Origin: an uncultured Bacillota bacterium
GTDB taxonomy: Bacteria; Bacillota_I; Bacilli_A; RFN20; CAG-288
Assembly: GCA_949282275.1 (NCBI GenBank)
Contig: CASDOO010000027.1
Location: forward strand, 1-64,000
DNA: 64,000 bases
Direction: 5' to 3'
The notes beneath the pieces are model-generated. The model did no database searches and was not told the DNA's origin. It was given only the letters and a program-made list of their open reading frames with translations. Positions 14,107 to 37,973 of this stretch are shown here, piece after piece. The position numbers were made by a program, and so were the translations under genes. The stretch's first letter is position 1. Each line of letters starts with the position of its first letter.

Positions 14107-14243
14107 TGATAATTGTTTAATAAAAATAGCCAGTTCTGGTGAGATAAAAATCACCAGTTCTGGCGAAAATTAAATCACTAAGGCGTTTCTCGTTTGCATA
14201 GACTTCCTTCTGGTTGCTTATCAACCGGAAGGGAGGAATGACA

Positions 14244-17092: not shown

Positions 17093-17425
17093 TGCGGGCC
17101 TCCTTCCTGGCATGCCGAGATGGGACGGGATCGCTCCTCAGCCTTCCTCCGCGCCTTTTCTTGTGTGTTGATGCGGGGTGCGGGCGAAGCCGCCCCCAAG
17201 TGGATAAACCGCGCTCGGGAGAGAAGGAGGGAACGGAAAAATGTGTCATGCGGGATCTTCGGCAAGGACGGATTGCCGAGTCCCGAAAAGCCCTTCTTCC
17301 TCGTTCCCGGGTCCCTCCGTATGCCTACGGAAAAGACCAGGAGACACCTTCGTCTCACATCCATCCGGATGCCACCATTCTATAGGATGGAGGCGGCTGA
17401 TGGCACCCTAGGGTGCCATCAGGGA
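17093..17425 (-). ncRNA. Candidate IS110 bridge RNA / left-end region, copy 2
   Basis: On the minus strand this leader has, in the same order as copy 1: a perfect 24-bp palindrome centred on CCTAGG (17398-17421), GTCTCCTGGT (complement at 17336-17345), and a hairpin CCGTA-GGCA-TACGG (17317-17330). Against copy 1 (GCGCA-GGCA-TGCGC) two stem pairs are changed on both sides while the GGCA loop and flanking motif stay constant. Distance from palindrome to ATG is about 318 bases versus 293 in copy 1. Confidence 0.55.
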
Positions 17426-17955: not shown

Positions 17956-20898
17956 TCATGCTGGTATTATGGCTTGACCGCTCTGTATTAAGTAATTTAG
18001 ATAGTCTACATAATGAAGTAGTTCATCTAAAGTAACCATTTCTTTTCCAATAGCAATTTTCAAGTACTTTACATTAAAGGAAACAAAGGTTTCTCTTGTG
18101 ATGTAGGGCTCCCATTCTTCAAAAGTAAAGAGACCATATCTTTTGATGTCCGTCTCTATTTGGAAAAGGTTGAATCTAAGGCCTTCACCGACATCAAAGA
18201 TATTGAACATTCCTTGGATGTAAGGAGTCATGGTAAGGAAGCCGTTTGCGACAGCATTCAAATCTACAGAACTGAAGATACCATAGCTCTCGAGATAACG
18301 TGTTTTGATGGAATAACTTACCAGTTTGGTCGTATTCTCAACGTTGGCTTGGTTGTAAATGACAAAGTTATGGCCGATATATGTCAATATATTCTCTTTT
18401 TTGATTGTCTCATATTGCATCGTATTCATATCAAACAAAGCATGTTCGGCAATAATCTCTAACGATTCTCCATTGTCAAAGTGCAACGCAATCACTTCAT
18501 AGTTCGACTTTCCATGATTAACAAGCAAAGCAATCGGGCGGGCTACATATTTTCCGATGACGTGGTCAAACGACATGATCATTTCTCCTGGTTGAATATC
18601 CTCAACAGCTTTTTCAGTTCCATCAGCCATTAAGATGCGGGTGCCTTCGACAAAGCATCCTTTCTCAACCTTAATTGTGACAGAAGGTACATCAGAAATC
18701 ACTCGGCCATCATATCCATCCGTAACAACGACAGAGAGGGTATATGTGACACTATTTTCATCCTCATTTTTTGGTATTGTCACAGAAACGACGTTTCCAA
18801 TTTCATTTTGCACATTAATAGGAAGAGTCTCATTCGTTCCGCTCTTAGTGCACGACCATGAAAATTGGGTATTTGGAGAAAGGGAACCACCATTTGTGAT
18901 GGTTGTATTTGCTCGGAAATACTTTGTTGCTCCATCATTTGTTACAGTTAAAGTTTGTCCATCATCCCAACTTTCACCATCACTACTATTTTGAATCAAA
19001 ATATCGGCGATTGGTTGAACAGTTCTCAGTATCGGAATAATCTTGATTTCATGGCTCACGCTGCTGACAGGAACAATTAAATTTTCCGAATATGGTTCGT
19101 CATCGATTTGAATTTCCATGATGTTTTCAATTGAGCGGATAGCAAATCCTTCCCCATCATAAACACGAATCAATTCAGGGTTTTCAAATGTTTCTGTCGA
19201 ACCGTCACGTCTACGAATTTCGACCTGATAGGAGGGAGAATAGTAATTATCATCATTTACAAAGGGATTTACGAAATTTAATAGATATCCTTCTAACATC
19301 CAGTAAAAGTCAGTGCCATTTGTTCCATAGGAATAGTTTTCTTGCTCAAGTTTAGCATCGGAAGTAAAATCCAACGCATCGGAAGTAAGTGCAACATCTG
19401 CAACTGCCGGAAATGTGAAAGGAGAGATTGTTAGCGAAAGAATCGAACCACCTGTATGCTCAGTTGCAGGTGATTCCTGTAGAATATTGACAGTGATTCT
19501 ACTATTTGCATTGTTTTCTTTGCCGGCTGTGATTTTTCCACCAAAACCAGAATTGATGTTGATGATGCCATCATTCGTCAATGTTGCCGGAGTTGAGATT
19601 GTATAATCTCGCATCACTGTGCCAGAAGCGTTTCGGTTGGATGCGTAAAATGAGGTGTTTGCATTGATATTCAATGTTGCATTCTTTTGAACATGTAAAG
19701 ATGCTCCAGGTAAAAACTTCACTTGATAATTGATATCATATGTGCCATCGTCAATGAAAATATGATAAGTTCCAGGAATGGGGAAGAAAAGATTCTCGCT
19801 AGATACATCAATCATGATATTTACTGAAACATATCCAAAAGAGAAATTTCCTTTCAGATGCGCATCAACGGAGTGTGAATAAAAATCTTTTGTCAGCATT
19901 TCTGTAGAATGAGTTTGTCTCCATTCAATAACAGAACCTTCCGTGTCAATAATGATAAACGAATTGCTTGTGTTCCAAGAGATGATTTTTCCTTCAGTGA
20001 ATTCGTTCACTGCCGGTTTGTGTCCGACACTATTTCCGTAAATGTGGGCCAATCCATACATTTCGCTTTGATAATGAAAATACATCTTAGCCGAAATATT
20101 AGGCAAATCGAAACGATTGAATGGAAATACATTTTTTAAATAAACCATTCCAGCTGTTGTCGCTGATGAATAATCGTAAATCGCGAGTGGTTGTTTGATG
20201 ACTCCGCCAGAAAGAACATCGATGTGAGCATTTGACTCTGTCTCAGTCTTAATAAATCCAATGCAGTTGATGGTTCCGGAATTCTCGATAACTGAATCGT
20301 CGGACAGATTTATTTCGACAAACATTCCACAGGTTGCAGATTGTGGACTCGCGCCACCAACTTGACCGCCAATATTCAGTGTCCCTCCCGTCTCGATTGT
20401 TAAGGTTGGAATGATTTGTCCAACATTGTCTCTACACGTTTCGATAAGAACATTGTTTCTCATTAAGGTATAATTGCCATCGGAAAATCCTGCTGGAGTA
20501 GTATTTTCTGTTAAATCTGCAAATTGATACTGTTCGCCTTCGACAGCAAAGGTTAAAGTGACATTTGCACCAATAGTGCAAGGATCATCTATGATAATCT
20601 GATTTTCTTTCCACCATTGCTCTGGAGTTTCTGTTCCTTCAGGCATGACTTTAGGGATAACGTAAATTGTTTGTGCCCCAGCCCCGGAAGAAGCCCTTTC
20701 ATTGGCAACTTCCAGAGCTTTTTCAATCGAGGTGAAATAAGAATTGTCGGTGTCAATATAGCAAATTGGCTCTTCTTGTTTCAAAGATACTTCTTCTTTT
20801 TGATTTAGGCCGACAATCCAACTCGAAAATGCCGTCAAAAACAAAGTCGAAAGGAGAATGCACAAAATATACGTGTACGTAATTCTCGTTTTAAGCAT
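17956..20898 (-). CDS. Surface beta-helix protein with C-terminal Hint domain (A)
   Basis: 980 residues. The N-terminal hydrophobic segment ends in AFSSWIVGL, like the SipW-type signals of the other operon products. A long beta-rich region (about 40-560) has repeated IENSGTINC/TLNIGG-like turns suggesting a parallel beta-helix, then Ig-like segments (590-740). From Cys748 a Hint domain follows: GCFVEGTRILMADG, AVEDIQPGEMIMSFD, and IIAEHALFD in place of the usual TxxH block. After it comes a ~110-residue C-terminal domain (IKRYGLFTFEEWEPYIT) shared with the paralogue at 21586. Hint domains can cut or join proteins at the N-terminal Cys. Start at ATG nine bases after GGAGG. Role: probable adhesin or fibre component. 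Confidence 0.8.
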   Translation of the reverse strand: MLKTRITYTYILCILLSTLFLTAFSSWIVGLNQKEEVSLKQEEPICYIDTDNSYFTSIEKALEVANERASSGAGAQTIYVIPKVMPEGTETPEQWWKENQIIIDDPCTIGANVTLTFAVEGEQYQFADLTENTTPAGFSDGNYTLMRNNVLIETCRDNVGQIIPTLTIETGGTLNIGGQVGGASPQSATCGMFVEINLSDDSVIENSGTINCIGFIKTETESNAHIDVLSGGVIKQPLAIYDYSSATTAGMVYLKNVFPFNRFDLPNISAKMYFHYQSEMYGLAHIYGNSVGHKPAVNEFTEGKIISWNTSNSFIIIDTEGSVIEWRQTHSTEMLTKDFYSHSVDAHLKGNFSFGYVSVNIMIDVSSENLFFPIPGTYHIFIDDGTYDINYQVKFLPGASLHVQKNATLNINANTSFYASNRNASGTVMRDYTISTPATLTNDGIININSGFGGKITAGKENNANSRITVNILQESPATEHTGGSILSLTISPFTFPAVADVALTSDALDFTSDAKLEQENYSYGTNGTDFYWMLEGYLLNFVNPFVNDDNYYSPSYQVEIRRRDGSTETFENPELIRVYDGEGFAIRSIENIMEIQIDDEPYSENLIVPVSSVSHEIKIIPILRTVQPIADILIQNSSDGESWDDGQTLTVTNDGATKYFRANTTITNGGSLSPNTQFSWSCTKSGTNETLPINVQNEIGNVVSVTIPKNEDENSVTYTLSVVVTDGYDGRVISDVPSVTIKVEKGCFVEGTRILMADGTEKAVEDIQPGEMIMSFDHVIGKYVARPIALLVNHGKSNYEVIALHFDNGESLEIIAEHALFDMNTMQYETIKKENILTYIGHNFVIYNQANVENTTKLVSYSIKTRYLESYGIFSSVDLNAVANGFLTMTPYIQGMFNIFDVGEGLRFNLFQIETDIKRYGLFTFEEWEPYITRETFVSFNVKYLKIAIGKEMVTLDELLHYVDYLNYLIQSGQAIIPA

Positions 20899-21573
20899 TG
20901 TTTTCAACCTCCGAAAAATCTACACCCAATTGGAAAGGTATTGTTGGTGTGGCCTTTAACTTCGGGTACAAGGAATCAAAGTCCTCTATAGCAAAAGCAA
21001 ATTTCACATTTACAATGAAATAACGCTCAGTAGTCGAACCAGAAACATCGGGTAGATTGGCAATATTCATGTAGGCCGTCAAAACAGAATCCATCCATAT
21101 TGCATTTCCCGGGATATCTTGAGTTGTATTGGCATGCGAATAGAATACCTGAAAAGCAGTTGCTGAACTGAAGACATCAGCCTCGTCAGAAGCAAGACCA
21201 CGACTATAGGATAAACGAAGACGCAAAGGCAAACTGTCATCAATTAAAGGAAAAGGCGAGTTACCAGCTTGAAGTAAGGTGAGATTTAATGTCAAAGAGG
21301 CTGAAAAGACAGCAGTGTTTCCTACAGCTTCGTCAACAATAAATCCTTTTTCGCAAAATGGTGAAAAGGAGAAATCGCCAACGGAGCAATATTTCGAAAT
21401 CTCCTGGACATCATCGGCATCAACAATCAGTTCATCAATGGAAAGGTTAGCAGAAGATTGAATGGTCCATGATGCATAGCCAATGCTAAAGAGAGATAAA
21501 GCAACGAGGAATTGACCCCCCCCGCAAATCTCATATGGTGACGTCGCAACCAGTACTTTAAATTCAACTTCAT
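20891..21573 (-). pseudogene. SipW-type secreted protein, frameshifted at an 8-G run
   Basis: The start ATG (21573) reads MKLNLKYWLRRHHMRFAGG, then a run of eight C on plus (21516-21523) puts it out of frame. One extra base would join it to QFLVALSLFSIGYASWTI, a SipW-type signal, and a continuous ~200-residue beta-rich protein down to 20891, which overlaps the next start by eight bases. It resembles the intact 211-residue protein at 24423 in size, position before a Hint protein and N-terminus. The tract could be a phase-variation switch, a true mutation, or an undercalled homopolymer. Annotated here as disrupted as written. Confidence 0.7.
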
Positions 21574-21585
21574 TTTGCTAATCCT

Positions 21586-24426
21586 CTATTCACCTTCTCT
21601 TAGATAGTGTTGGATAATTTCACGGAGCCTTTCTTCCGTAAAGAGTCCTTTTCCAACGCCTATTTTAAAGATTGGGCCATTAAACATATCAAATTGTTCT
21701 TTTGTCAAAATATCTTTGAATTCTTCATATCTATAGAGTCCGTATTTGTCGATATCTTCTTTCTTCTTTTGGCTATCATAACGGAATTCAGAGTCGATAT
21801 CAAAGAAGTTTGTATCACATATGATGGGCTCAACAATCATCAAATTGTTCGCGAAAAGATTAAAGTTTTTTGCTGTAATAGGAGAGTATGTATCCGACAC
21901 TGCCTCTTCAACTTGAACATCTTTGACACGTTTGAAAACCAACCTGTTATTTTCATAGACGGCTAGAGCTCTTCCAATTGTGGAGATAGCAGTAGAAGAA
22001 TCAACGCAAAAATACTTTTTACTATCATAATCGAAGAAAGAATGTTCATCTGCCACATCAAAAGTTGAGCCATCATCAAAGAATAGACGAATTCTTGTGT
22101 AAGAAATTTGATGAGAAACTTCATTGAAGATAATTGGCTGAGGTTCAAAACGTCCTTTTTCAAAGTCCCAAGTCATAACAACATCACCAATAGATAAGTC
22201 TTCTATCGGTCGAGTAGAACCGTCTGGCAAGAGAATCAATGTTCCAGGAAGAATACAGCTAGTATCAATTGTCAGTGAAGGGGCGGAATCGATAATTTGA
22301 TACCAATCGTCCCCAATATTAGATAGACCATTCGATGTAGAAATACCTCCACGAGTGTTTATCATGACATATCCGCCAACACGAACAATAAACGGAGAAG
22401 TTTCGTTTGTAAAAACAGAGTTTCCAAATTGATTGGCAAACAAATTGTTAGAAGTAGAGACTGTGTCAATATCATTATACGAAATAGTATAGCTGACTCT
22501 ATCTACACGGTCGCCAATAACTGTAACAGAAAATTCCATAATTGGATTTTTCTGATGGAAGCGAATGGTTGGAAAACATGAGGAAATGGAATATGAACCA
22601 CTATTGTCATCTAAGCCAATATACTCGACCCAGGAATCTTGATGGAGCTTTTCGCTAATAGAAATGGATGCGCCAATAGATAAGTCATTCGAACTTAGAT
22701 CGGAATCCGCCTCAATATCAGAACCCAAAGGAATTGTTTCGCCATTTTTAGTATAAGAAACAGTACAATAAGTTTCGATAACACCAGAATCAAATCGAAC
22801 TTTGATTTCTGGATGGAATTCCTGGGGTACTTCTTTCCAACCATATGCAACCAAGCCTTCACTTGTCATGCCAGTCGTAGAAACATAATGTGTAATTTCT
22901 GCATTGACGTAATCACTGACTATTGATGAAACCTCGTCAACTAACCTTAAGCTCGCATTACAAGTAATAGTTTCACGTGTTCCGGAATCTAGTAAAGATC
23001 CATTATAAAGCTCAACTGAATTAACATTTACATTTTCAACAATAGTTAATTCAGCGTTTTGGCTTGTGTTTATATCGATTTTTCCACTTAAATTTGCAGC
23101 TACAACTCTTCCATCAATTGTAAATTTAGCTGGGCCTGTCAAATCTCTGGATGGATATTTTGTTTTAATGGTTGAACCATCTTGCCAAGTGTCAGGATAG
23201 ATTATTAGTGATTGTGCTTCAAGGACTGCATCTGAATCAACAAACAATGAAGCACCAGGCAGCAACTTGAAATCACTCAACATAGAATATTCACCATCAT
23301 GGAGATTGATGTCATACAAAAAAGATATCGGGAAAACGACCTCTGTTGTATTAAGAGAAATCGTAGAAGAACCCATAAATGCACCAAGAGGTCCAACATA
23401 TAAAGAAATATTTAAACCATTAGTATTTGCACCACCAAAAATATCAATATTTGTTTTTCCAACATTGGGACATGAAATCGTTTCGCCTGCACGATTGAAT
23501 TTTGAAACCATATAAGCTCCGGAATGCAACTGAATCAAACAATCTGTTGAAGAACCGACCAATGTTCCTGAGGCAGTATTGCATTTGTCACCTGCATAAA
23601 GCCTAACATCAATATTGATAGTCCCACTAAAATAGGTATACATCAATGTTTCAATGTTTACGAATGCAAACATGTTGAAAGGGCTAGCTTTAATTTCGTT
23701 TAAATTTCGATATGAGCAGGCAAAAAAATTGCCTCCGCCAAAATCAAGCATAACGAATGGTATTCGAATTTGGCCATAATTGTGAAGAATCGATTGATTA
23801 TTATGTGTTTTTTCCTGAATAAAACCACGACAATCAATGTTCCCGCGATTAATTAATTGTGCGTTTTTTCCAAGAAGGATTGTGGCATAATTCCCACTTG
23901 TCTGGCCGGAAAAGTATCCTGCTCCACCACCTCCATAATTGATTTCACCGCCGACAAGAATTTGTCCATAATTGATGATAGAGACATTGTCTGCAATCTC
24001 AAGAGTGTTTTTGCAATTGCTTTTGTTATTAGTGGCAAATTGATAGTCGAAAACTTTTGTGCATGTCACAGTGCCATCTGCATTCTTTGTTTCATTGGAG
24101 TAAGTTTCACCAGAATAGGGGAGAATTAATGTGACATTTGATCCGATAGTCAAACCATCCGTTGAAATACTGGCTTTTGTGCTAGGAACGACATATACCG
24201 TTACTCTATCAGAAACACTATTGGCGGCCAAAATAGCTTTATCAACAGAAGCAAAATTTCTGCGATGTCCTTGAGAATCGAGAATATAACTGACAATTTC
24301 AGCCTCATCAGAAAGAACGGGAGTTAGTTGATCAGCAGGAACAATATAAGAGGAATGGCCAACTAAACAAAGAGATAATACTGATGTTGACAAAACAAAA
24401 AGCGAAATTCTCTTTTTCTTTTTCAT
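21586..24426 (-). CDS. Surface beta-helix protein with C-terminal Hint domain (B)
   Basis: 946 residues, paralogue of protein A. Signal region ends GHSSYIV. A beta-helix-like stretch (about 40-480; LIN.GNID, ILHNYGQI) and Ig-like parts precede the Hint domain starting at Cys724: SCILPGTLILLPDG, PIEDLSIGDVVMTWD, FDVADEHSFFD, and a C-terminal block AKNFNLFANNLMIVEP resembling the end of Hint/intein folds (..NF.ANGL). A further ~100-residue domain (IDKYGLYRYEEFKDILT, GKGLFTEERLREI) matches the tail of protein A. The start overlaps the upstream stop (ATGA). The conserved tail after the Hint fold may be the cargo that is released or attached. Confidence 0.82.
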   Translation of the reverse strand: MKKKKRISLFVLSTSVLSLCLVGHSSYIVPADQLTPVLSDEAEIVSYILDSQGHRRNFASVDKAILAANSVSDRVTVYVVPSTKASISTDGLTIGSNVTLILPYSGETYSNETKNADGTVTCTKVFDYQFATNNKSNCKNTLEIADNVSIINYGQILVGGEINYGGGGAGYFSGQTSGNYATILLGKNAQLINRGNIDCRGFIQEKTHNNQSILHNYGQIRIPFVMLDFGGGNFFACSYRNLNEIKASPFNMFAFVNIETLMYTYFSGTINIDVRLYAGDKCNTASGTLVGSSTDCLIQLHSGAYMVSKFNRAGETISCPNVGKTNIDIFGGANTNGLNISLYVGPLGAFMGSSTISLNTTEVVFPISFLYDINLHDGEYSMLSDFKLLPGASLFVDSDAVLEAQSLIIYPDTWQDGSTIKTKYPSRDLTGPAKFTIDGRVVAANLSGKIDINTSQNAELTIVENVNVNSVELYNGSLLDSGTRETITCNASLRLVDEVSSIVSDYVNAEITHYVSTTGMTSEGLVAYGWKEVPQEFHPEIKVRFDSGVIETYCTVSYTKNGETIPLGSDIEADSDLSSNDLSIGASISISEKLHQDSWVEYIGLDDNSGSYSISSCFPTIRFHQKNPIMEFSVTVIGDRVDRVSYTISYNDIDTVSTSNNLFANQFGNSVFTNETSPFIVRVGGYVMINTRGGISTSNGLSNIGDDWYQIIDSAPSLTIDTSCILPGTLILLPDGSTRPIEDLSIGDVVMTWDFEKGRFEPQPIIFNEVSHQISYTRIRLFFDDGSTFDVADEHSFFDYDSKKYFCVDSSTAISTIGRALAVYENNRLVFKRVKDVQVEEAVSDTYSPITAKNFNLFANNLMIVEPIICDTNFFDIDSEFRYDSQKKKEDIDKYGLYRYEEFKDILTKEQFDMFNGPIFKIGVGKGLFTEERLREIIQHYLREGE

Positions 24427-25058
24427 GCGGCAATACTCCCGAGGTCAATTTTTAAAGAAAGCCTTAAAGGATTTTGCAAAAAGTCAGTATAAATTTGTTT
24501 AAAACTATCTATAGTTGATACATTAAAATTAAGAATTAATTTCAAGTGAAGAAAATCTGATTGAATAGAAGCCGTGGTGATAGAAGGAAATTGTCCTACA
24601 ATCGAAGCGGAATCTCTTATTAGCGTCGATGAAATTTGATTCTTATAATCGTAAGTAGAATCATACGAAAGAACGATAGAATCAATCACATTAAACAAAG
24701 CCGTATTCATAGATTTATTTGTCAATGTCACATTAAATAAAACAAAGTTTGTTTTTGTTTCATCATAATAATGCTTCAAATCAAAACTCAAATAAAAAGA
24801 AACAGAAGCATTGGTGACAAATTCATCTTCGTTTAAAAAGCCAAAATTAGTCAAGATAATTTCGTCAACGGCATCATTTCCTGATCCTTGTGTTTTATCC
24901 AAATTAAGATATTCGCCGATATAATAAACATTATCGGCGCCTACTTGAATATTTGGGACATCTATTGCAGATTCTGAAATAATAAACGTTGAAAATCCTA
25001 ACCCAGCAAGGCTGGCTGTGCATAATGCAAAAACAGTTGCAATCTTCCACTTCTTCAT
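24423..25058 (-). CDS. Small SipW-type secreted protein (TasA-like)
   Basis: 211 residues. The N-terminus MKKWKIATVFALCTASLAGLGFSTFII has the G-[FY]-[AS]-[ST]-aromatic ending typical of SipW-dependent signals, followed by a beta-rich secreted domain with no Cys after the signal. Size and placement fit a TasA/camelysin-like subunit or a partner for the Hint protein immediately downstream. Overlaps both neighbours by four bases (ATGA). Base composition is notably AT-rich compared with the upstream half of the operon. Confidence 0.75.
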   Translation of the reverse strand: MKKWKIATVFALCTASLAGLGFSTFIISESAIDVPNIQVGADNVYYIGEYLNLDKTQGSGNDAVDEIILTNFGFLNEDEFVTNASVSFYLSFDLKHYYDETKTNFVLFNVTLTNKSMNTALFNVIDSIVLSYDSTYDYKNQISSTLIRDSASIVGQFPSITTASIQSDFLHLKLILNFNVSTIDSFKQIYTDFLQNPLRLSLKIDLGSIAA

Positions 25059-26197
25059 TCTTCGACCTCCCAGTGAGCATAGAGAATAAGTTGCTCACCA
25101 TAAATAGGAGTCAAATCGGTAAACTGCCCACTCAGATATTCATCCGTGGGCGAGGTATACCAGCCAGAGAACTTAAATCCATTCATATTTGGAACACCAA
25201 TTGTCTCGAAGCTATTCGATCCAGTAAGAGGTATATTTGTTCCGACTTCCATGGTGGTTAAGAATTTAACATTTTCTCCACCAATGAAGGAACCACCATT
25301 AGCATCGAAATAGATTGTACAATACTCTTTTTGTTGAGTGGCACCTGTTCCTTTCATTGAAAAAAGAGGTGCTTCCCAGCCAATGTCACTCTTGAAATAA
25401 ACTTCACCGGTTGCGATATTGAGGTAATAATCCCCTGCTATTCCGATGGTGGAGGAAGGAGCGACGTCTCCGTAATACCAATGTGTGGCTTGTGGTCGGG
25501 GAATACGGAGAATAGAAGTCGTACCATCAGTATAGGAAATAAGGAGACCAAAGTTGTTTTCGTCAGATTGGGTTTCCGAATATGAAATAAAAGAAACTCC
25601 CGTTCCATTTTCGCTGGGAGGTATTTCGATTGTCGTGGCTTCCCTTCCGTCTGTATAAGTGATCGTAATGATGTAATTCCCAGTCTGGCTATCCAATTGA
25701 GAGGATATGGTATCGATACCGACACCATTCTGTCCATTCTGTGCCTTGGGTATGGTGAAGCTGTTCGTGGTTCCGTCGGAATAGGTAAAGGAAAGGACGT
25801 TGTTTCCGCTCTCATCCTGTGTCATGGCGACGTTTGCGATTCCTTTTCCATCCTGGCCCTGAACGACAGGAATCGAAAGGACGGTATCAACAACGCTAGG
25901 GTCGGTATAGGAGATGGTCAAGGTAAGGGTATTGTCGGCAAAGGAATAGTCAACGTTAGCGATGCCGACACCCGGCTTTCCGGAAAGACCGGCAGGAAGG
26001 GTGACAACAAGGGGATCCTTGGTTTCGTCGGTATAGGAGATGGTTAAAGTGACATCGCCGTTTGCAGCCGTGCTTTGGCTGACGTTCTGGATATGGTAGC
26101 CCTCGTCTCCGCCGAAGATGAAGTTGCAGGAGGAAAGACTCGGCGCAAGGCCGATGAGCGAAAGGGCGATGAAGAAGCGACGGAATCTCTTTTTCAT
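25055..26197 (-). CDS. Lipoprotein with DG repeats and an InlB-type B repeat (1)
   Basis: 380 residues. Lipobox SLSSC (Cys24). Residues about 30-245 hold about five ~40-residue repeats of the form LTISYTDxxxx..L.IP..., separated by G.(D/N)G.GI turns. A linker around WYYGDVAP leads to a Listeria-Bacteroides (InlB B) repeat at about 290-380: YFDANGGSF.....GFKFSGWYTSPT....LYAHW. Such repeats form beta-grasp surface modules. It is a tandem paralogue of the gene at 26210. AGGAGG precedes the ATG. Likely a membrane-tethered surface or anchoring subunit of the fibre system. Confidence 0.82.
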   Translation of the reverse strand: MKKRFRRFFIALSLIGLAPSLSSCNFIFGGDEGYHIQNVSQSTAANGDVTLTISYTDETKDPLVVTLPAGLSGKPGVGIANVDYSFADNTLTLTISYTDPSVVDTVLSIPVVQGQDGKGIANVAMTQDESGNNVLSFTYSDGTTNSFTIPKAQNGQNGVGIDTISSQLDSQTGNYIITITYTDGREATTIEIPPSENGTGVSFISYSETQSDENNFGLLISYTDGTTSILRIPRPQATHWYYGDVAPSSTIGIAGDYYLNIATGEVYFKSDIGWEAPLFSMKGTGATQQKEYCTIYFDANGGSFIGGENVKFLTTMEVGTNIPLTGSNSFETIGVPNMNGFKFSGWYTSPTDEYLSGQFTDLTPIYGEQLILYAHWEVEE

Positions 26198-26209
26198 TTT
26201 CTGTTCCTC

Positions 26210-27316
26210 CTATATTTCATCATACCAGGCATAGAGGGTCAGATCCCTCAAGACCTTGGTCGTATCGTCGAATTTTCCGGAATTGGGATCATAGGTCGGA
26301 CTGGTATGCCAACCGATGAAGGTGGCATTCTCCTTTGTGGGAATGCCAACCATATTGTGCAAGGTCGTCCTGTCGAGATAGGATTCTTCCTGGACCATGA
26401 AGGTGATGCTTTGATTCCTGCCGTTTGGAAGGACGCCACCATTCGGGTCGAAGGTGACGCTGTGGTAGGGAAGGGGTTCTTCGACGCCATAGCCGTCTAT
26501 CGTCAGAAGATAGGTCCACTCTCCATCATCCTTGGCATAGAGGTCTCCCGAACGGATGTCGACATAAAAGTCCCTGTCCTTGCCAAGGCTTGAAGGCGGT
26601 TCGCCAACGCCTCGATGCCATTCCTGAGGGCTTTCATGAGGGATTTCAAGCGGGAAGATCCGGCCATCGGACAAGGTGAAGGTATAGGTGATGGTCGTGT
26701 CCGTCGTGTTTGTGATCTGGACATCGGTTATCGTTGCGCCATCCACTCCATCCGGAATGAGGATGACAATCGGCGTCGAGCCATCGCTCCAGGACACGGT
26801 CACCTGCGTTCCTTCCTCTGTCTTCTCTGTCTGGATGGAAGAAATCAAGTGCGTGGCATCCTCGCCATCCATTCCCTTTGGGATCGTAAGAAGAGGGCTT
26901 TGGGTGCCATCGGAATAGGTAAAGCGAAGAGTCGTATCCCCTTCTTCGTCCCTTCCGAGCGTCAGTCCCGTCACGATTATACCATCCTTGCCCCTGCGAT
27001 TGGGGACGCGAAGGACGGTCGGTTCCTTGGTTGCGTCGGTATAGTTGATGGTCAGGACGATTTCCTCCCCTTCGGGAACGGCAGTGACGTCCTTTATGGA
27101 AGCACCGTCAATGCCTGCAGTTCCCGTCGGAACGGTGAAGGTGAAGTCGGGCCTGGCATCGTCCATGAAGGCGATGGTGACGATGGTGTTGCCGAGATTG
27201 TCCGCCGCCGTGGCGACGTTTTCGATCATGTAGGATTCCGTCGCACCGAAAATGAGGTCGCAGGAGGAAAGGGGAAGGGTCGCGATGGACAGGGCAAGAA
27301 GGAGTGCCTTTTTCAT
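26210..27316 (-). CDS. Lipoprotein with DG repeats and an InlB-type B repeat (2)
   Basis: 368 residues, same architecture as its downstream neighbour: lipobox PLSSC (Cys19), repeats such as LTINYTDATKEP and LRFTYSDGTQSP separated by G.DG turns, a spacer with a W.R.GVGEPPSS motif, and a C-terminal InlB-like repeat (TFDPNGGVLPNG...FIGWHTSPT...LYAWY). Start overlaps the upstream stop (ATGA) with GGAGGT nearby. A tandem duplication followed by divergence; this copy is GC-richer than copy 1. Confidence 0.82.
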   Translation of the reverse strand: MKKALLLALSIATLPLSSCDLIFGATESYMIENVATAADNLGNTIVTIAFMDDARPDFTFTVPTGTAGIDGASIKDVTAVPEGEEIVLTINYTDATKEPTVLRVPNRRGKDGIIVTGLTLGRDEEGDTTLRFTYSDGTQSPLLTIPKGMDGEDATHLISSIQTEKTEEGTQVTVSWSDGSTPIVILIPDGVDGATITDVQITNTTDTTITYTFTLSDGRIFPLEIPHESPQEWHRGVGEPPSSLGKDRDFYVDIRSGDLYAKDDGEWTYLLTIDGYGVEEPLPYHSVTFDPNGGVLPNGRNQSITFMVQEESYLDRTTLHNMVGIPTKENATFIGWHTSPTYDPNSGKFDDTTKVLRDLTLYAWYDEI

Positions 27317-29772: not shown

Positions 29773-31373
29773 GCGTTCACCTCCATTCTTCGATAAAGCC
29801 TGTCGACGCGCTTGGGCGGGAAGAGAAGAAGCGGGACAAGGGCAAGGAGACTCAGAAGGAAGGAAGAAAGGTAGATCGTCTCCCGCTTTGCGCCAGAGAA
29901 GGAGAGGACAAGGCCGATGGCAAGGATGGCGACAGGGACAAGATAGCTCGCCATGGACGAGAGGAAGGAAAGACGCGCCTTGCTCTCGCCAAGGTCGTGG
30001 ATGTCGCCAAGAAGGGAGAGCAGGTTCATGGCAAGGATGAGAAGGAGACTGGCGGCAAGGGCGACGCCGAAAAGCGGCCAGGAGAGGGTATTCGTGCCCG
30101 CAAGGACAAGCAGGGAGATGGTGCTGGAAAGAAGGGAAAGAAGGCTCGGGCAAAGAAGCTTCACCAGGAGGACATAGGAGGGCTTGTAGGGGAGGATCTT
30201 GCTCACCGTCAGGGCCTTGCCCTCCAGGGAAGGCTTGAGGGCATTGCCGGCATTGACGATGCCGACGAAGAGCAGGAAGAGGGCAAGGAAGACGACGTTG
30301 AGGGTCTCCGGATAGTAGGCAAGGAAGACGGAGAGGTTGTAGGTCAACGTGGCCTTGAGGGAAGAGAGGACGACGAAGGAGAGGAAAGGCAGCATGATGA
30401 GGACGGAGGTATAGGAGAAGGTATTCGAACTGTCCTTGAAGAGAAGAAGGAGTTCCTTCTTGAGAAGGGCCTTCTTCGGGGAATCGATGCGGAAGCTTGC
30501 GATGTCGACGCTCTTTTCCTTCTCGCGGAAGAAGAGACGCTTGGAAAGAGCAAAGTCCGCCGCAAGATAGCCGGCGGCAACGGCAAAGACAAGAAGGCCG
30601 AGGATGATGAGGACGTTGGAAACGATGTTGTCATGGCCCATGAAGAGGTCGAGCATGGAAAAGACCGGGACAAGGAAGAAGGTCGTGTCGGCAAGGCCCT
30701 GGACGAATTCCGTCGAGAGCGTACCCGTCAGTGCCGAATCGGAAAGGGAGACGAGGAAGAGGTCGAGGAAGACCTGGTAGGCATAGCAGAGAAGGACGAC
30801 CAGGACCGATGCCAAGGCAAACTGGATCAGGTTCCGGTCCTTGAGAAGGAGGTAGAAGACCTGGAAGAGAAGGGAGAGGAGGAAGGAGAGGCCGGTGGAG
30901 AAGACGGACAGGAGGAGGCAATAGACCACGGACATGACATGGTACCAATAGGGGAAGTTGACCTTGACGCCGAAGGTGATGAGAAGCGGCATCGAGAGCA
31001 GGGCCAGCTCGACAAGCTGGACCAGATAGATATAAAGCATCTTCGAGAGGATGACTTGGTGGCGTGCGATCGGAAGTGGGGCGATGACCTGGGAGTCGTC
31101 CTTGTCGAAGAGGCATTTCCTTGCCCTTGTCGCGCCTTCCAGGATCGTGACCGCAAGGACGATGAAGAGGAAGAACACGAGCGTATGGAAAGGCGCGGAG
31201 TAGGAATAGGCCGTCAGCTTGTCATAGAGGGCACCGGTGAGGAAGGAGAGCAGGGCAACGAAAAGAATGCCGCCAAGAAGCGTGAGGACGTTCTTGACGA
31301 TGCGGGAAGAGAGCGATTCGTCCCTGCCCCGGAAGCCGAGGCGGAATTCCTTGAAGAGAAGGGTGATGATCAT
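29769..31373 (-). CDS. ABC transporter permease
   Basis: 534 residues with about 12 hydrophobic segments, resembling the ABC-2-like permeases of exporter pairs (motif ARKCLFDKDDSQVIAPLPIARHQV between helices 2 and 3 fits the family's cytosolic PLP/PI.R.QI loop). It overlaps the ATPase by four bases and the beta-helix gene by four, so all three should be co-translated. It may export a fibre component or extract one from the membrane; substrate not known. Confidence 0.85.
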   Translation of the reverse strand: MIITLLFKEFRLGFRGRDESLSSRIVKNVLTLLGGILFVALLSFLTGALYDKLTAYSYSAPFHTLVFFLFIVLAVTILEGATRARKCLFDKDDSQVIAPLPIARHQVILSKMLYIYLVQLVELALLSMPLLITFGVKVNFPYWYHVMSVVYCLLLSVFSTGLSFLLSLLFQVFYLLLKDRNLIQFALASVLVVLLCYAYQVFLDLFLVSLSDSALTGTLSTEFVQGLADTTFFLVPVFSMLDLFMGHDNIVSNVLIILGLLVFAVAAGYLAADFALSKRLFFREKEKSVDIASFRIDSPKKALLKKELLLLFKDSSNTFSYTSVLIMLPFLSFVVLSSLKATLTYNLSVFLAYYPETLNVVFLALFLLFVGIVNAGNALKPSLEGKALTVSKILPYKPSYVLLVKLLCPSLLSLLSSTISLLVLAGTNTLSWPLFGVALAASLLLILAMNLLSLLGDIHDLGESKARLSFLSSMASYLVPVAILAIGLVLSFSGAKRETIYLSSFLLSLLALVPLLLFPPKRVDRLYRRMEVNA

Positions 31374-32179
31374 TCCTTCTCCTCCTCCACGTCAAAGGAG
31401 CGGAAGATGTCCTTGAGCTTCCTCCTTTCGAGGGGCTCCTTCCGGAAATCGATATGGCGCTTGATCCTTCCCTTGTCGAGGATGCCGACGCTATCGCAGA
31501 TCTTGGAGACGAAGTCGATGTTGTGGCTGGTGAGGAAGATCGTCCTGCCCCGGGCCTTGAGATCCTTCATCAGGCTGAAGAGCATCTCGTTGACGACAAG
31601 GTCGAGACCGACCGTCGGCTCGTCCAGGATCCAGATCTTCGGATTGTGGATCAGGGAAGCGATGAGGCAGATCTTCTGCTTCATGCCGTGGGAATAGTCG
31701 CGGATCCTCTTGCGGAGGTCGTTGTCGTTGAAGCTTAGGCGGGAGGCCAGGACGCGATAGTTCTCGACGAAGTCCTTCTGGCTGACGCCATAGGCGCCGG
31801 CGACAAAGGAAAGGTATTCCTTTCCGGTCATGATCTCGTAGGCCGTCGGTTCGCTGGCGACATAGCCAAAGCAGGACTTGGCCTTTTCCGTCTCGGAAAG
31901 GACGTCATGGCCGAAAATGGAGATGGAACCCTCGTCGAAGGCCTTGAGACCGACAAGGCAGTCGATGGTCGTCGACTTGCCGATGCCGTTCCTTCCGATG
32001 AGGCCGAAGCTCTCGCCTTCCATGACGGTGATGTCGATGTCCTTGAGAACCTCAAAGGTGCCGTAGCTCTTCTTCAGGTGGTCGATGCGTATGGCAACCT
32101 GGTCGCTAGGGACAATGGCTTGGTCGTTCTCGTTCTGGGGAGTCTTCTCTCCCTTGAGCATTTGCAATAGACGGTTCAT
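31370..32179 (-). CDS. ABC transporter ATPase
   Basis: 269 residues. Walker A GRNGIGKST, Q-loop region SCFGYVASEP, signature YSHGMKQK (a LSGGQ variant), Walker B IWILDEPTVGLD, H-loop LTSHN. An N-terminal 25-residue extension precedes the ATPase fold. Start ATG 32179 overlaps the upstream TGA (ATGA) five bases after GGAGG. Energises the permease encoded next. Confidence 0.9.
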   Translation of the reverse strand: MNRLLQMLKGEKTPQNENDQAIVPSDQVAIRIDHLKKSYGTFEVLKDIDITVMEGESFGLIGRNGIGKSTTIDCLVGLKAFDEGSISIFGHDVLSETEKAKSCFGYVASEPTAYEIMTGKEYLSFVAGAYGVSQKDFVENYRVLASRLSFNDNDLRKRIRDYSHGMKQKICLIASLIHNPKIWILDEPTVGLDLVVNEMLFSLMKDLKARGRTIFLTSHNIDFVSKICDSVGILDKGRIKRHIDFRKEPLERRKLKDIFRSFDVEEEKE

Positions 32180-33561
32180 GATGCCCTCCAGAGTCCTTCG
32201 ATCCACGTATAGGACTCTCCCTTATGGATGACGTTCTTCATCGTGGCATGGCAGTTGGGACAGTGATAGTGATCTCCCGCCTTGTTCAGGTGCATGCAGG
32301 AGCAGACCGGGCAGGAAAGATCGAACCCTTCCTTCTCGTGGAAAACGAGGAAAAGGGAAGAGAGATAGAGGCGAAGGGAAGTCATTGAATAGGCGTTGTC
32401 CGGACGCAGGACAAGGACATGATCCCTTTCCTCGGGGATGGGACCATAGGTGACAAGGGTCCTGTCGACAAAGTCCGGATCTCTTTGCGAAAGCCTGGCC
32501 TTGAAGGCATCGAGCTTCTTCTCGTCGCTGTCGACGTCGATCTCGAGAAGCCTTTCCGCCTTGAGGATGGTGGCGTTGTTGTCCCTATCCAGGAACAGGG
32601 TACGAAGCCGGAAGCCCTTTTCATGGGGATAGAGGGAAAGGGAGAGGTTGTCCTTCCTGGCGATGAGGCAATCGAAACAGATCTCGCCTTCGCGGAAGCT
32701 GAGGCCATAGTCGGAGAACTCGAACCCGTTCTTCCTGAGGACGTCGAGGATGGAAAGAAGGACGAAATCCTTGAAGCCGACCTGCTCTTCCTCGTCCTCT
32801 TTGGGTTCCTTGAGGATTTCCTGGACATAGAAGCGATAGCAGCGGGAATAGAGCGGATGATGGAGAAGGACGTTCGTCGGCTGGAGGTTTCCCTTGATGG
32901 GGAAGGCGCTCAGCTCGTGATAGAAGGTTCCGCTCTTGAGCCTCTTGAGATAGCGGAAGGACTGGTTGAGACAGCTCTGGACTTCCTCGTCCTTTTCCGG
33001 AAGGATCCTTTGGTCTTCATAAGGTGCCCTGAAGTCGGAAAAGAGGGAAAGAAGACCGGTCGGACGATAGGAAATCCTCTTCTCGGGGACGATGTCCAGC
33101 AGGGAGGAAAGCTTTCTCTTCGAAAGAAGGCGCAGCTCCTGGACTTCCTTCTCGATGGCATCGATGAGCATGCAGAGGAAGCGGTTCTCGTAGGTGAGGA
33201 TGGTATCCACCTTTTCCGAGGCATGGAGGAATTCCGGAACCATCTCTCCGCCCTTTCTCTTCCAGAGGGAAGGATCCGCGATTGTCCGTTGGAAACCCTC
33301 CGGCGTCAAGGGGCCGGCATTCTCCACGCGCTTGATTTCCTCTTCCCTCGATGTCACGATGGCCGGATCGAAGACGATGGAGACGATGGTCGAGAGGATG
33401 GATAGGAGCCTTTTTGCCCAAGAAGCGGTCGCCTCGTGGTCATAGGGCTTGTGGAGGGAAATCCTGCCGCTGTCCAACAGGAAAAGCAGGGCGGAGAGAT
33501 GGTGTTCTCTCCCCATCGTGGCAACCTGCTGTCTGTAAGCGGCAAGAGAGGATCTTTTCAT
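32176..33561 (-). CDS. DUF2357/McrC-like protein with C-terminal zinc ribbon
   Basis: 461 residues. The segment TILTYENRFLCMLIDAIEKEV (about 120-145) and LQPTNVLLHHPLYSRCYRFY (about 225-245) match DUF2357-type proteins, the usual partners of McrB-like GTPases/ATPases in McrBC-like loci. The C-terminus has a zinc ribbon (CPVCSCMHL ... YHCPNC, about 415-440). A clear PD-(D/E)XK nuclease core is not obvious by eye, so DNA cutting is uncertain. It starts two bases after the McrB-like gene's stop. Its setting inside a secretion operon argues for a non-restriction role. Confidence 0.65.
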   Translation of the reverse strand: MKRSSLAAYRQQVATMGREHHLSALLFLLDSGRISLHKPYDHEATASWAKRLLSILSTIVSIVFDPAIVTSREEEIKRVENAGPLTPEGFQRTIADPSLWKRKGGEMVPEFLHASEKVDTILTYENRFLCMLIDAIEKEVQELRLLSKRKLSSLLDIVPEKRISYRPTGLLSLFSDFRAPYEDQRILPEKDEEVQSCLNQSFRYLKRLKSGTFYHELSAFPIKGNLQPTNVLLHHPLYSRCYRFYVQEILKEPKEDEEEQVGFKDFVLLSILDVLRKNGFEFSDYGLSFREGEICFDCLIARKDNLSLSLYPHEKGFRLRTLFLDRDNNATILKAERLLEIDVDSDEKKLDAFKARLSQRDPDFVDRTLVTYGPIPEERDHVLVLRPDNAYSMTSLRLYLSSLFLVFHEKEGFDLSCPVCSCMHLNKAGDHYHCPNCHATMKNVIHKGESYTWIEGLWRAS

Positions 33562-33563
33562 GT

Positions 33564-35372
33564 CTACAGTCTCTTGATCAGCTTCGCAAGGGCGTGGTGG
33601 GTAAGGGGGAAGCTGTCCTTTCCATAGATGGTGTCCAAAAGGCTCTCCAGATCCTGGAGTCCCTGCTTGACGAAGTCTTCATAACGGCCTTCGAGCTTGT
33701 AGAGGACCTTGCGGGCGAAGAGGAAGTCCAAGGCATCGGTCTTCTTTCCGCCGCAGGCGACATAGACGGGAACGAGAATCTGGATCTGGTTGAGGACACG
33801 GTTACCGAAGGTGATGTCGAAGGTCTCGGAGACGAAGGAGGTCAGACGGTCGAAGGAGGCAAGCTCCGCCTTGGAAAGACGGTTCTTCTCCTCGGAAATG
33901 GCCTGGGCGAAGAGATCGTTGAGGTGGCTGTAGGAAAGATGGATGGGAGTGATATCCTCCTTTACCTCGAAGGGTTCGTTGCGGTCATCGAAGGAAATGG
34001 TGATGGCACGGTCATAGACCTTGTCGGTGATGGTATAGGTGGAATCGTCCTTGTTGGCCGTACCGATGAACCAGGTGTTCTCGGGAATCTGGAGGACGCC
34101 TTCCTCAAGATGGCTGGGACCTTCGAAATCATAGGGAACCTGCATGATGCGAAGCTTCCACTTGTCGACGGGATATTCGAGGATCGAGAGGAAGTCGGCG
34201 AAGTAATATTCGACGCGGGAAATGTTGACTTCATCCAGGACCATGATGTTGACATCGTTCTGGCGATAGCTCATGCGATAGAGACGCTTGAGGAAGTCCG
34301 TCTCGGAATAGCGTCTGGAGAAGTCGTTGTAGAAGCCGAGGATGGAAGTACGATCCCTCCAGGAAGCCTGGACGGCCTCGAAGAAGGATTCCTCGCCGAT
34401 GAATTCGGAGAAATAGCGGGCAAGGGAGGACTTACCGGTACCGGAGAGACCCTCGAGGATGATAAGACGGCTGGCCGCCATGCCGGAGAGGAAGGCACGG
34501 AGCGTATCCAAAGAGAAGTAAAGGCCTTCGTTCTTGGCGAGATAGAGGCGGAAGTTCTCGACGATCTGGGCAAGACTGTAATTCGTCTCGGGAACGATCT
34601 TGGCGACACGGCTTTCCTCTTCCTCGTCGATCGAGCAGAGGGCAGGGAAGACATATTCCTTGCTGCCGAGGGGAACTTCCTTCGTTCCTTCCTCGCCTTC
34701 CGTTCCGGAAAGGCCGGAAGTCAGGGCCTGAAGGGCACCGCCGGTTCCAAGGGCAGAGACAAGACTGTCGGAGGAAGGCATGGCACCAGGTTCACGACTT
34801 TCATCTTCCTTCTTCTCGTCGTCGATGTCTTCCGTATCCTCACCCTTGTTGAAACGGAAGGGCTTGTCGATGTTGCGGACATTGACGATGAGCATGACGA
34901 GGAAGAAGATGGGAAGGCCAAGGATGAGGAAGAGAATCGTGCCGATGAGAAGGCTCTCGCCGAAGAAGAGGAAGGCATCGCCAACGTTCTGTCCGATGTT
35001 GGCAAGGAGGGAGAGACCGATCCAGAGGGCAGAGAGGATGACGAAGGTTCCGGCATAGATAAGGCTCCACTTCGTCGTGAAGATCTTCTTCTCATAGAAC
35101 TTCGCCAGGCGGATTTCATAGAGGAAGGCGCAGGCGAAGAAGAAGGCATAGACCGCGAAAAAGCCCAAGACGAGCCATCCAGACATCTGAACGGAAACCT
35201 CGGGCAGATGGAGGGCGCTGATGAACAGTCTCTTCAGCGGGCTGTTGGCTTGGATGACGGAATTGGAGGCATCGGCGATGAAGCCGGCAGCCAGGAGGAA
35301 GAGGAGATAGAAGAAGAGCAAGGCAATGAAGATGAAGTTCTTTCGTGTAAAGTGCGTTTTCTTATTCGTCAT
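33564..35372 (-). CDS. Membrane-anchored McrB-like AAA+ ATPase
   Basis: 602 residues. Four or so N-terminal membrane helices (about 12-35, 62-88, 103-128, 137-165), an acidic linker (175-230), then an AAA+ domain of the McrB/MoxR type: Walker A LEGLSGTGKSS, IQ-like DRTSILGFYND, Walker B VNIMVLDEVNISRVE, sensor-1 WFIGTANKDDS. Such ATPases act as hexameric motors. The start (ATG 35372) overlaps the sipW stop by 11 bases with AAAGGGAGG before it; a longer reading frame lies inside sipW. Membrane anchoring is unusual for McrB and suggests a remodelling role at the fibre export site. Confidence 0.82.
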   Translation of the reverse strand: MTNKKTHFTRKNFIFIALLFFYLLFLLAAGFIADASNSVIQANSPLKRLFISALHLPEVSVQMSGWLVLGFFAVYAFFFACAFLYEIRLAKFYEKKIFTTKWSLIYAGTFVILSALWIGLSLLANIGQNVGDAFLFFGESLLIGTILFLILGLPIFFLVMLIVNVRNIDKPFRFNKGEDTEDIDDEKKEDESREPGAMPSSDSLVSALGTGGALQALTSGLSGTEGEEGTKEVPLGSKEYVFPALCSIDEEEESRVAKIVPETNYSLAQIVENFRLYLAKNEGLYFSLDTLRAFLSGMAASRLIILEGLSGTGKSSLARYFSEFIGEESFFEAVQASWRDRTSILGFYNDFSRRYSETDFLKRLYRMSYRQNDVNIMVLDEVNISRVEYYFADFLSILEYPVDKWKLRIMQVPYDFEGPSHLEEGVLQIPENTWFIGTANKDDSTYTITDKVYDRAITISFDDRNEPFEVKEDITPIHLSYSHLNDLFAQAISEEKNRLSKAELASFDRLTSFVSETFDITFGNRVLNQIQILVPVYVACGGKKTDALDFLFARKVLYKLEGRYEDFVKQGLQDLESLLDTIYGKDSFPLTHHALAKLIKRL

Positions 35373-36336: not shown

Positions 36337-36355
36337 TTAAAAGGAAATAGTGGAT

Positions 36356-37060
36356 TTAGGCAGTCGCAGCCTCTGTCGTGAGTGTAATGGCGATTTTATC
36401 TTGGTTATAGCTGTAAATCGTTTTCAGAGCAGAGATGGCATTTTCCAAAGTTACGGTTGAGCCATCAATGTATGATTCCGTGCCTTCAGCCGGATTTTGA
36501 TTATCAAAATAGTCTCCCCAACCAAATTTGAAAACAGCTTCGAATGTGTAAGTGGTGGATTCCTTGAGATTGACGGTAACGCCACTGGTTCCAGAAGCAG
36601 CTGTCGCAGTTCCACTTGTGATGTTGACCAAAGTTACTTTGGAAGCCAAAGGATTGACAATATAAGTCGGGTCCCAAGAATCGGAGCCAGTGATAGCCGC
36701 TGTTGCAACAATGTTTCCATTGAAAGTGGAACCTTGAGGAATGTCCACATCAAAGTGTATGGCAAAAGTAAGATCTTCGGCATCTTCGGTAGAGGTGATT
36801 TGTCCCTCACTATCCGAAACAGGGCCAAAACGGAGGGAAGTATCACTCATATTACTCCCACCCTCAAAGCCACCGACTGCTGCGTTTTTAATCGTGATTC
36901 TATTGTCCGTGACATTATCGGCCGTGACCGATATGTTGCTGACGGTTTGACTATTTGTCGTAGAAATGACCCAAGAGGCATACCCGATTCCAGCCGTAGC
37001 AACGGCAACAAGGGAAATGACGGAGACAGCGATGGCCTTTTTGTGTTTAATCTGTTTCAT
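36356..37060 (-). CDS. TasA-like fibre protein 2
   Basis: 234 residues. N-terminus KKAIAVSVISLVAVATAGIGYASWVISTTN is a textbook SipW-dependent signal. The mature part is beta-rich, Thr/Ser/Asn-rich and Cys-free. Near the C-terminus it has FKFGWGDYFDNQNP; the neighbouring protein has a matching WGNYFGGKAP. TasA and camelysin form extracellular fibres; the same role is inferred here. AGGAG precedes the ATG, and the gap to sipW is 19 bases. Confidence 0.82.
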   Translation of the reverse strand: MKQIKHKKAIAVSVISLVAVATAGIGYASWVISTTNSQTVSNISVTADNVTDNRITIKNAAVGGFEGGSNMSDTSLRFGPVSDSEGQITSTEDAEDLTFAIHFDVDIPQGSTFNGNIVATAAITGSDSWDPTYIVNPLASKVTLVNITSGTATAASGTSGVTVNLKESTTYTFEAVFKFGWGDYFDNQNPAEGTESYIDGSTVTLENAISALKTIYSYNQDKIAITLTTEAATA

Positions 37061-37087
37061 GGATTATATAGCTCCTAGTTATTGAGA

Positions 37088-37903
37088 TTATTCGGCCTTA
37101 GGTGTCGCATCGACGGAAACAAGGATCGTCAAGGTCGGTTTCTGGTTTTCTTCAAGGCTGGAAGGATTGAGTTTCTCTTCCATCATCTGAAGTTCCTGAG
37201 TGACCTTTTGAAGGGTATCGAAATCATTGGCCAAACCTGTTTTGCTACCCGCCTTGAACATATCGTTGTAATAAGCGGTAGGAGCTTTTCCTCCAAAATA
37301 GTTGCCCCATTCCAGTTCGCAGACAAGATCATCGCCGGCAGCATTATATTGATAAGTGCCATCTCCCTTGCTGGTGAGGTTTTCACCGGCCGTCAATTGA
37401 ATTGTCTTGCTAAACTCGACATAATGATAATCTTCAGCATCATCACGCTTTCCAATAAGGTCATGCTCTGCATCGCCTTTGAAGGTATTTTCTTTTGTGA
37501 CATCGGGAAGTTCGGCTTCAGAAGAATAGTCAATGGAAACAGTCAAGGAGATATCGTTTTCCAAAGCATAGGCTTCACCGCAGGTCAGCTGAATGGAGGA
37601 AAAAGAAAACTCCATGTCCGGCGTCAATTTGCTGTCCTCGACGGTGACAATGTCGCCAGCAGTGCTGGCAGAGGGCGTTTCCGCAATCGTAATCGACTCG
37701 CCTTCGGCAATCGTGGCAGCCAAGGTGACGGCGCTGTTCTTGGCCGTATCGATTGCGATGTTGATGTTTCCTTCCTGTTCCTGCGCCTGATTACCGATGA
37801 TCCAGGTCGCAAAACCGGTCGTAACCAACGTTACGGCAGCGAAAGCAGCGATACCTCCAGCAATCCATTTCTTGCGTCCGACGGATTTGTTGGTCTTAGC
37901 CAT
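37088..37903 (-). CDS. TasA-like fibre protein 1 (operon head)
   Basis: 271 residues. SipW-type signal ending VTTGFATWIIGNQ after a Lys/Arg-rich N-terminus. Acidic, beta-rich, Cys in a few positions (LTCGEAY, DLVCELEWGNYFGG). I start at the ATG nine bases after AGAAAGGAG; the longer frame from 37966 would begin in the promoter. As first gene behind a strong promoter it is probably the most expressed product, fitting a major fibre subunit. Confidence 0.82.
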   Translation of the reverse strand: MAKTNKSVGRKKWIAGGIAAFAAVTLVTTGFATWIIGNQAQEQEGNINIAIDTAKNSAVTLAATIAEGESITIAETPSASTAGDIVTVEDSKLTPDMEFSFSSIQLTCGEAYALENDISLTVSIDYSSEAELPDVTKENTFKGDAEHDLIGKRDDAEDYHYVEFSKTIQLTAGENLTSKGDGTYQYNAAGDDLVCELEWGNYFGGKAPTAYYNDMFKAGSKTGLANDFDTLQKVTQELQMMEEKLNPSSLEENQKPTLTILVSVDATPKAE

Positions 37904-37945
37904 ATAAAACGACTCCTTTCTGTTGTTGAACAAACTAATAGCTTT

Positions 37946-37973
37946 TATATAGCGGGAGGGGGACAAAAGTCAA
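37946..37973 (-). promoter_or_regulatory. Promoter of the fibre/Hint operon
   Basis: On the minus strand TTGACT (37968-37973), 16-base spacer, TATATA (37946-37951; TATAAA two bases on gives 18), about 40 bases before the first ATG. Confidence 0.65.

Follow-up and report, generated by a model that had tools for sequence, protein, structure and literature searches.

A conserved gene set joining SipW, an McrB-like AAA+ protein and Hint-domain proteins, with a probable role at the cell surface of uncultured gut bacteria

Why should a SipW-type signal peptidase, an AAA+ protein related to McrB, an ABC transporter pair and giant Hint-domain proteins be encoded side by side? A minus-strand gene array in the window (the whole 64,000-nucleotide stretch of DNA analysed here) raises this question, and the carriers of such arrays are uncultured gut bacteria known mostly from metagenomes. 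On the gene evidence, the set probably serves to build or anchor fibres or large proteins at the cell surface. The observations behind this reading are gene content, gene order, co-divergence, sequence motifs, an absent nuclease signal, the signal motif of the client proteins and the link between Hint proteins and the system across genomes. Together they provide a precise and widespread gene set for a barely explored connection between McrBC-type motors and surface appendages.

Layout of the operon

The operon occupies window positions 37,903–17,956 on the minus strand and contains 14 genes, listed here from 5' to 3' with one homopolymer tract.

37088..37903 (-): TasA-like 1, small SipW-type secreted protein; signal ...GFATWIIG
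36356..37060 (-): TasA-like 2, small SipW-type secreted protein; AlphaFold model an Ig-like β-sandwich with an N-terminal helix
35362..36336 (-): SipW, ER/archaeal-type signal peptidase I; TIGR02228 above cut-off, 3 TM
33564..35372 (-): McrB-like AAA+ protein; 4 N-terminal TM, Walker A/B, NxD motif
32176..33561 (-): DUF2357 (McrC-N-like) protein; C-terminal four-Cys zinc ribbon
31370..32206 (-): ABC ATPase; PF00005
29769..31373 (-): ABC permease; about 12 TM, relatives match PF16949, one ABC2_membrane_4
27313..29772 (-): conserved exported membrane-anchored protein; predicted N-terminal Ig-like domains and β-helix
26210..27316 (-): lipoprotein 1; lipobox, repeats, PF09479 at the C-terminus
25055..26197 (-): lipoprotein 2, a paralogue of lipoprotein 1
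24423..25058 (-): TasA-like 3, small, paired with Hint 1; signal ...GFSTFIIS
21586..24426 (-): Hint 1, giant surface protein of SipW type; ends in a Hint domain and a conserved tail of some 75 aa
20891..21573 (-): TasA-like 4, small, paired with Hint 2; frame disrupted at the G8 tract
21516..21523 (-): G8 homopolymer within the TasA-like 4 signal peptide
17956..20898 (-): Hint 2, giant SipW-type surface protein; Hint domain and tail at the C-terminus

The first-pass annotation had described a minus-strand operon at 17956-37973, and all of the gene types that it named are found there. Its gaps of at most 27 bases also agree with the measured intergenic distances, which range from -31 to +27 bases with numerous gene overlaps, but its count of thirteen genes falls one short of the 14, the missed gene probably being the small frameshifted one at 21,573-20,891. 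Several true starts lie inside mechanically called open reading frames, namely those of TasA-like 1 (37,903), McrB (35,372), the β-helix protein (29,772) and Hint 2 (20,898). A promoter-like TTGACT...TATAAA sequence, scoring under the threshold of the scanner, lies 5' of 37,903, and 39 promoter-like sites occur inside the operon (17-36.9 kb) against 22 expected. The operon may form a single transcript, and some of the internal sites may act as promoters.

Two successive pairs, each a small SipW-type protein followed by a giant Hint-domain protein, make up the 3' end. GC3 is uneven along the operon, at 0.66-0.83 in the core genes, 0.43-0.52 in the two first TasA-like genes, 0.48 in lipoprotein 2 and 0.25-0.35 in the AT-rich last four genes (TasA-like 3, Hint 1, TasA-like 4 and Hint 2), and because of this difference the Hint end looks like a cassette that evolves separately or was acquired. 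In TasA-like 4 the initial reading frame is lost within the signal peptide, at eight consecutive G (21,523-21,516). This run is one of two G/C runs of at least seven in the 64 kb, and when the 7.1 kb AT-rich region was simulated 2000 times with a Markov model, such a run appeared in 40 of the simulations; phase variation, a broken or decaying gene and a sequencing error are all candidate explanations for it. Just past the end of the operon lie two pieces of IS110-type transposases in opposite orientations, at 13526-14173 (+) and 16629-17249 (-). Further on, an isolated patch of low GC (38.6% at 8-10 kb) encodes a Fic/DOC protein at 8526-9560.

The McrB-like protein and the proteins encoded beside it

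The McrB-like protein bears a Walker A motif (GLSGTGKSS), a Walker B motif (VLDEVN) and the NxD motif NKDD. The form N-[KR]-D-D is present in all 63 McrB sequences examined, whereas E. coli McrB has NTAD, of the NxxD type, at the same motif. The relationship to E. coli McrB was detected by hhalign (1.7e-7), and E. coli McrB structures are the sole, weak PDB matches (E 0.011–0.03). Four hydrophobic helices are found in the window protein and 4-6 TM segments in all 62 McrB relatives, while Pfam returned no FtsB/DivIC match for the window protein. Among the members of the partner family, 23 of 47 match PF09823 in Pfam; the McrB and DUF2357 assignments of the first-pass annotation both stand, and the four C-terminal cysteines of the zinc ribbon are invariant across the DUF2357 relatives. 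None of the same 47 members matched a nuclease domain in Pfam, and residues 266 to 402 hold no conserved D/E/K set, so that no PD-(D/E)xK signature was seen. A comparison of the DUF2357 alignment with the single E. coli McrC by hhalign gave no match, Pfam searches with many members being more sensitive, and no DNA-binding domain was found in the McrB-like system. An ordinary McrBC restriction system was rejected because no nuclease was found.

An ABC ATPase and a permease are present, as expected of the ABC-2 exporters named earlier, but on the gene evidence the exporter role is doubtful, because the clients bear Sec/SipW-type signals and the ABC genes adjoin the gene of an outside-facing Ig/β-helix protein. 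AlphaFold models this exported, anchored protein as Ig-like domains plus a β-helix, and the β-helix part has no good match to any solved structure. A NosD identity was dropped, with no NosD match in Pfam and none among the Foldseek matches listed, and was kept as an analogy. The lipoproteins of the first-pass annotation proved to be two paralogues, the first of them with a lipobox, repeats and a C-terminal PF09479; the lipobox is present in 64 of 64 lipoproteins of relatives.

Conservation of the gene set and its clients

A scan of GTDB genomes returned 474 McrB relatives, from which the best 80 by similarity to the query McrB were retained, and the conservation figures therefore describe loci close to that protein. 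Most of these 80 are MAGs labelled as Bacilli, Bacillales, Clostridia or bacteria of unspecified kind; a few carry the label Acholeplasmatales, and one is an Anaeroplasma. Within this set 58 loci had enough flanking sequence, and the order SipW–McrB–DUF2357–ABC–ABC–β-helix–lipoprotein was identical in 53 of them. The gene-neighbourhood search proposed for sipW, McrB and DUF2357 thus recovered a core that is strongly conserved in relatives, and the idea that the set might be peculiar to this one genome fails. SipW is present in 73 of the best 80 loci and is missing mostly from truncated ones, SipW-type secreted proteins occur at nearly every locus, and no nuclease or HEPN gene belongs to the core order. 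The two ABC genes overlap or lie at most 5 bases apart in 54 of 62 loci, as do the ABC and β-helix genes in 61 of 62. Moreover, the distance matrices of the seven core proteins correlate with r of 0.47-0.90, while 200 permutations each gave no value above 0.14, in a test that covered 62 loci, all of them relatives and the window locus not among them.

A second gene order was seen in three of the 58 eligible loci and also in the source genome, whose second copy of the system (L032, G000:C20:18000-37999) has the genes of a lipoprotein, of a small protein and of a surface protein of 950 aa between the DUF2357 and ABC genes; this order recurs in L031, L033 and L119. The remaining two eligible loci (L093 and L120) have McrB–DUF2357 only. 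These two, together with L113 and L124, carry McrB-DUF2357 pairs with neither SipW nor an ABC neighbour in the examined sequence and are possible stand-alone paralogues. Short McrB matches (L034–L045) had no adjoining SipW and were left out.

The set recurs across several genera of the source organism's family. Within the class the β-helix protein is patchy, occurring in 29 of 290 good genomes, and among 392 genomes drawn evenly from the phylum there was no match outside the class. Patchiness fits a defence system as well as an accessory one, and it is conceivable, if unlikely, that the operon is an envelope anti-phage system, in which a nuclease-less McrB/DUF2357 pair detects phage at the membrane, with the surface proteins as sensors or decoys. 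McrBC relatives mostly act in defence, the AAA domain of the McrB-like protein matches the PADLOC defence candidate PDC-M26A (7.9e-34), and NxD relatives are, in the main text of Bell et al. 2024 (PMC11090510), predicted to form RNA-targeting defence systems. However, such a role sits poorly with a core order devoid of nuclease or HEPN genes, with the other core components having no specific defence-family match beyond generic ATPase ones, with SipW-type secreted proteins in nearly all loci, and with core genes that co-diverge as a stable unit.

It is also quite unlikely that the operon is a composite of two adjacent modules, a fibre operon resembling tapA-sipW-tasA and an unrelated ABC/McrBC stress module, with the promoter alone in common. 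SipW and TasA-like genes do occur elsewhere without the rest, and the alternative gene order (L031, L032, L119) would suit such an arrangement, but the strict order and overlaps of the 53 loci, a McrB-SipW distance correlation of 0.86, the retention of the same parts in both gene orders and the possession of the β-helix protein by all 18 genomes with strong SipW matches argue against it. An example of SipW apart from the rest is L166 (G152:C25), where an apparent operon with no McrB nearby combines a short SipW with a classical TasA-type signal (AYFTDTESVTNTF) and a Hint-domain protein, a SipW-Hint linkage outside the McrB system.

The catalytic Ser114, His171, Asp186 and Asp192 of SipW are invariant in the alignment of relatives, and the window protein has both these catalytic residues and the family model of the ER/archaeal-type SipW. 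The SipW-type signal motif was found in 152 of the 162 TasA-like proteins and in 35 of the 531 unassigned ORFs, where the motif was defined on the TasA-like family itself, some of the 35 are client genes themselves, and the TasA-like counts are approximate, one seed of the first HMM being out of frame. The first-pass annotation spoke of SipW/TasA fibres. SipW, an N-terminal signal of SipW type and the Ig-like β-sandwich predicted by AlphaFold (pLDDT 83) are consistent with this, but a TasA fold is not confirmed: the Foldseek matches listed are generic Ig-like ones with E > 0.01, none at E <= 0.001 and TasA not among them, and NCBIfam profiles, a PDB sequence search and fold comparison gave no convincing match to TasA. 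The predicted role of the small proteins as TasA-type fibre subunits is accordingly the weaker part of that earlier reading.

Hint 2 matches PF01079 above cut-off. Cys1 is kept in 17 of 17 Hint sequences and the block-B His in at least 90%, the C-terminal His-Asn at block G is absent from all 17, and a conserved tail of about 75 aa follows the domain. Since Cys1 and His are kept and His-Asn is absent, the chemistry expected is cleavage or transfer at the Hint N-terminus, without splicing. A small SipW-type gene often lies 3' of the lipoprotein gene; the giant encoded after it shares the signal motif and frequently ends in a Hint domain. Moreover, several unlinked Hint giants keep the same small partner gene. 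Of 296 genomes of the class, 19 encode giants of the Hint family, and 16 of these 19 also have the system, represented by its β-helix protein, against 28 of 296 overall and about 2 expected (Fisher p 2e-16, related genomes being counted as independent), which supports the earlier inclusion of Hint domains in the unit. Many loci have no Hint giant nearby, and the Hint step would therefore be accessory. A 4,168-aa Hint protein adjoins a β-helix relative in L168 (G269:C16), and a 2,029-aa one lies upstream of ABC-ABC-β-helix in L169 (G310:C38). The least probable alternative that we weighed, a system dedicated to the secretion and anchoring of giant adhesins with the small β-sandwich proteins as their chaperones and not fibre subunits, would explain why a small SipW-type partner usually precedes the giants, unlinked ones included, but not the two or more small proteins (up to six) 5' of SipW in most loci, nor the many loci without a nearby giant. 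Finally, chance adjacency of the core genes is rejected because of order conservation and the distance-matrix correlation.

Proposed mechanism and comparison with known systems

We hold, with somewhat more belief than doubt, that the operon encodes a conserved module which assembles SipW-dependent surface structures at the membrane, its McrBC motor being repurposed and its clients Hint-processed, and we infer the following chemistry and mechanics for it. Small β-sandwich subunits and giants would exit via Sec, tethered by their SipW-type signals, and SipW would then cleave both. The McrB-like AAA+ ring, a hexamer by analogy, would sit in the membrane through four TM helices per subunit, and its DUF2357/zinc-ribbon partner would stimulate it, such that NTP gates or drives SipW processing and subunit assembly in a complex that would no longer cut DNA. 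It is plausible that the ABC ATPase/permease relays ATP-driven motion to the Ig/β-helix protein on the outer face, which together with the lipoprotein would receive subunits or anchor the structure. In a last step the Hint domain of the giants would act at Cys1, releasing or covalently attaching the client in a Hedgehog-like manner, without splicing.

The role first proposed, assembly and covalent processing of cell-surface fibres or adhesins, survives in so far as one conserved unit handles SipW-dependent surface proteins, Hint domains included, and is weaker with respect to TasA fibres and an ABC-2 exporter. The main doubts about the predicted assembly arise from the unconfirmed TasA fold and the AAA match to a defence candidate. 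A bolder version, which we regard as tentative and would sooner doubt than accept, is a new class of surface-organelle machine, in which a restriction-type GTPase/AAA+ pair serves as membrane motor of a SipW-dependent secretion line and is coupled to an ABC-driven β-helix tower, while giants attach themselves covalently through their Hint domains, without need of a sortase. If true, these proposals would mean that a defence motor has been reused in envelope assembly and that bacterial Hint domains play a sortase-like role.

Several known systems share parts with the operon. In the tapA-sipW-tasA locus of Bacillus subtilis a SipW-type peptidase is found beside small secreted β-sandwich proteins (PMC9674648, PMC10151520). 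Similarly, the SipW of the operon adjoins small predicted β-sandwich proteins with SipW-type signals. We know of no McrB, DUF2357, ABC, β-helix or Hint parts in the B. subtilis locus. The type IV restriction system McrBC shares an AAA+ domain, related in the operon to E. coli McrB, and a DUF2357 partner, but the McrB of the operon is membrane-anchored, carries NxD and not NxxD, and comes with no nuclease or DNA-binding domain that we could find. NosDFY comprises an ABC ATPase, an ABC-2 permease and an extracytoplasmic β-helix protein, and the ATPase/permease/β-helix trio of the operon, with its overlapping genes, resembles it by analogy only, there being no NosD match. As in Hedgehog and bacterial intein-like Hint domains, the Hint domain is C-terminal with an invariant Cys1 and a nearly invariant His; unlike inteins, it has no C-terminal His-Asn, so that no splicing is expected, and the conserved tail of about 75 aa that follows it is a feature of its own.

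The first-pass annotation knew of no described locus with this set, which was nearly right, as a related McrB-family clade, CoCoPALM, was named in one paragraph by Bell et al. 2024 (PMC11090510). As described there, an NxD-motif McrB-like GTPase is fused to an FtsB-like TM/coiled-coil domain, coiled coils occur on both the McrB and McrC homologues, a signal-peptidase-family protein is associated, and a role in pilus assembly is suggested. The operon shares the NxD McrB-like protein with TM segments, the McrC-type partner and the signal-peptidase-family protein. It differs from that description in an McrB that has four TM helices but gave no FtsB/DivIC match, in the zinc ribbon of its DUF2357 protein and, relative to the main text of that paper, in its fixed ABC ATPase/permease/β-helix/lipoprotein core and its Hint clients. 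We have not filed the operon under CoCoPALM because of the missing FtsB-like feature, the added core and the Hint clients, and it may be a variant or a sister of that clade; as far as the published description goes, it would work like the CoCoPALM system.
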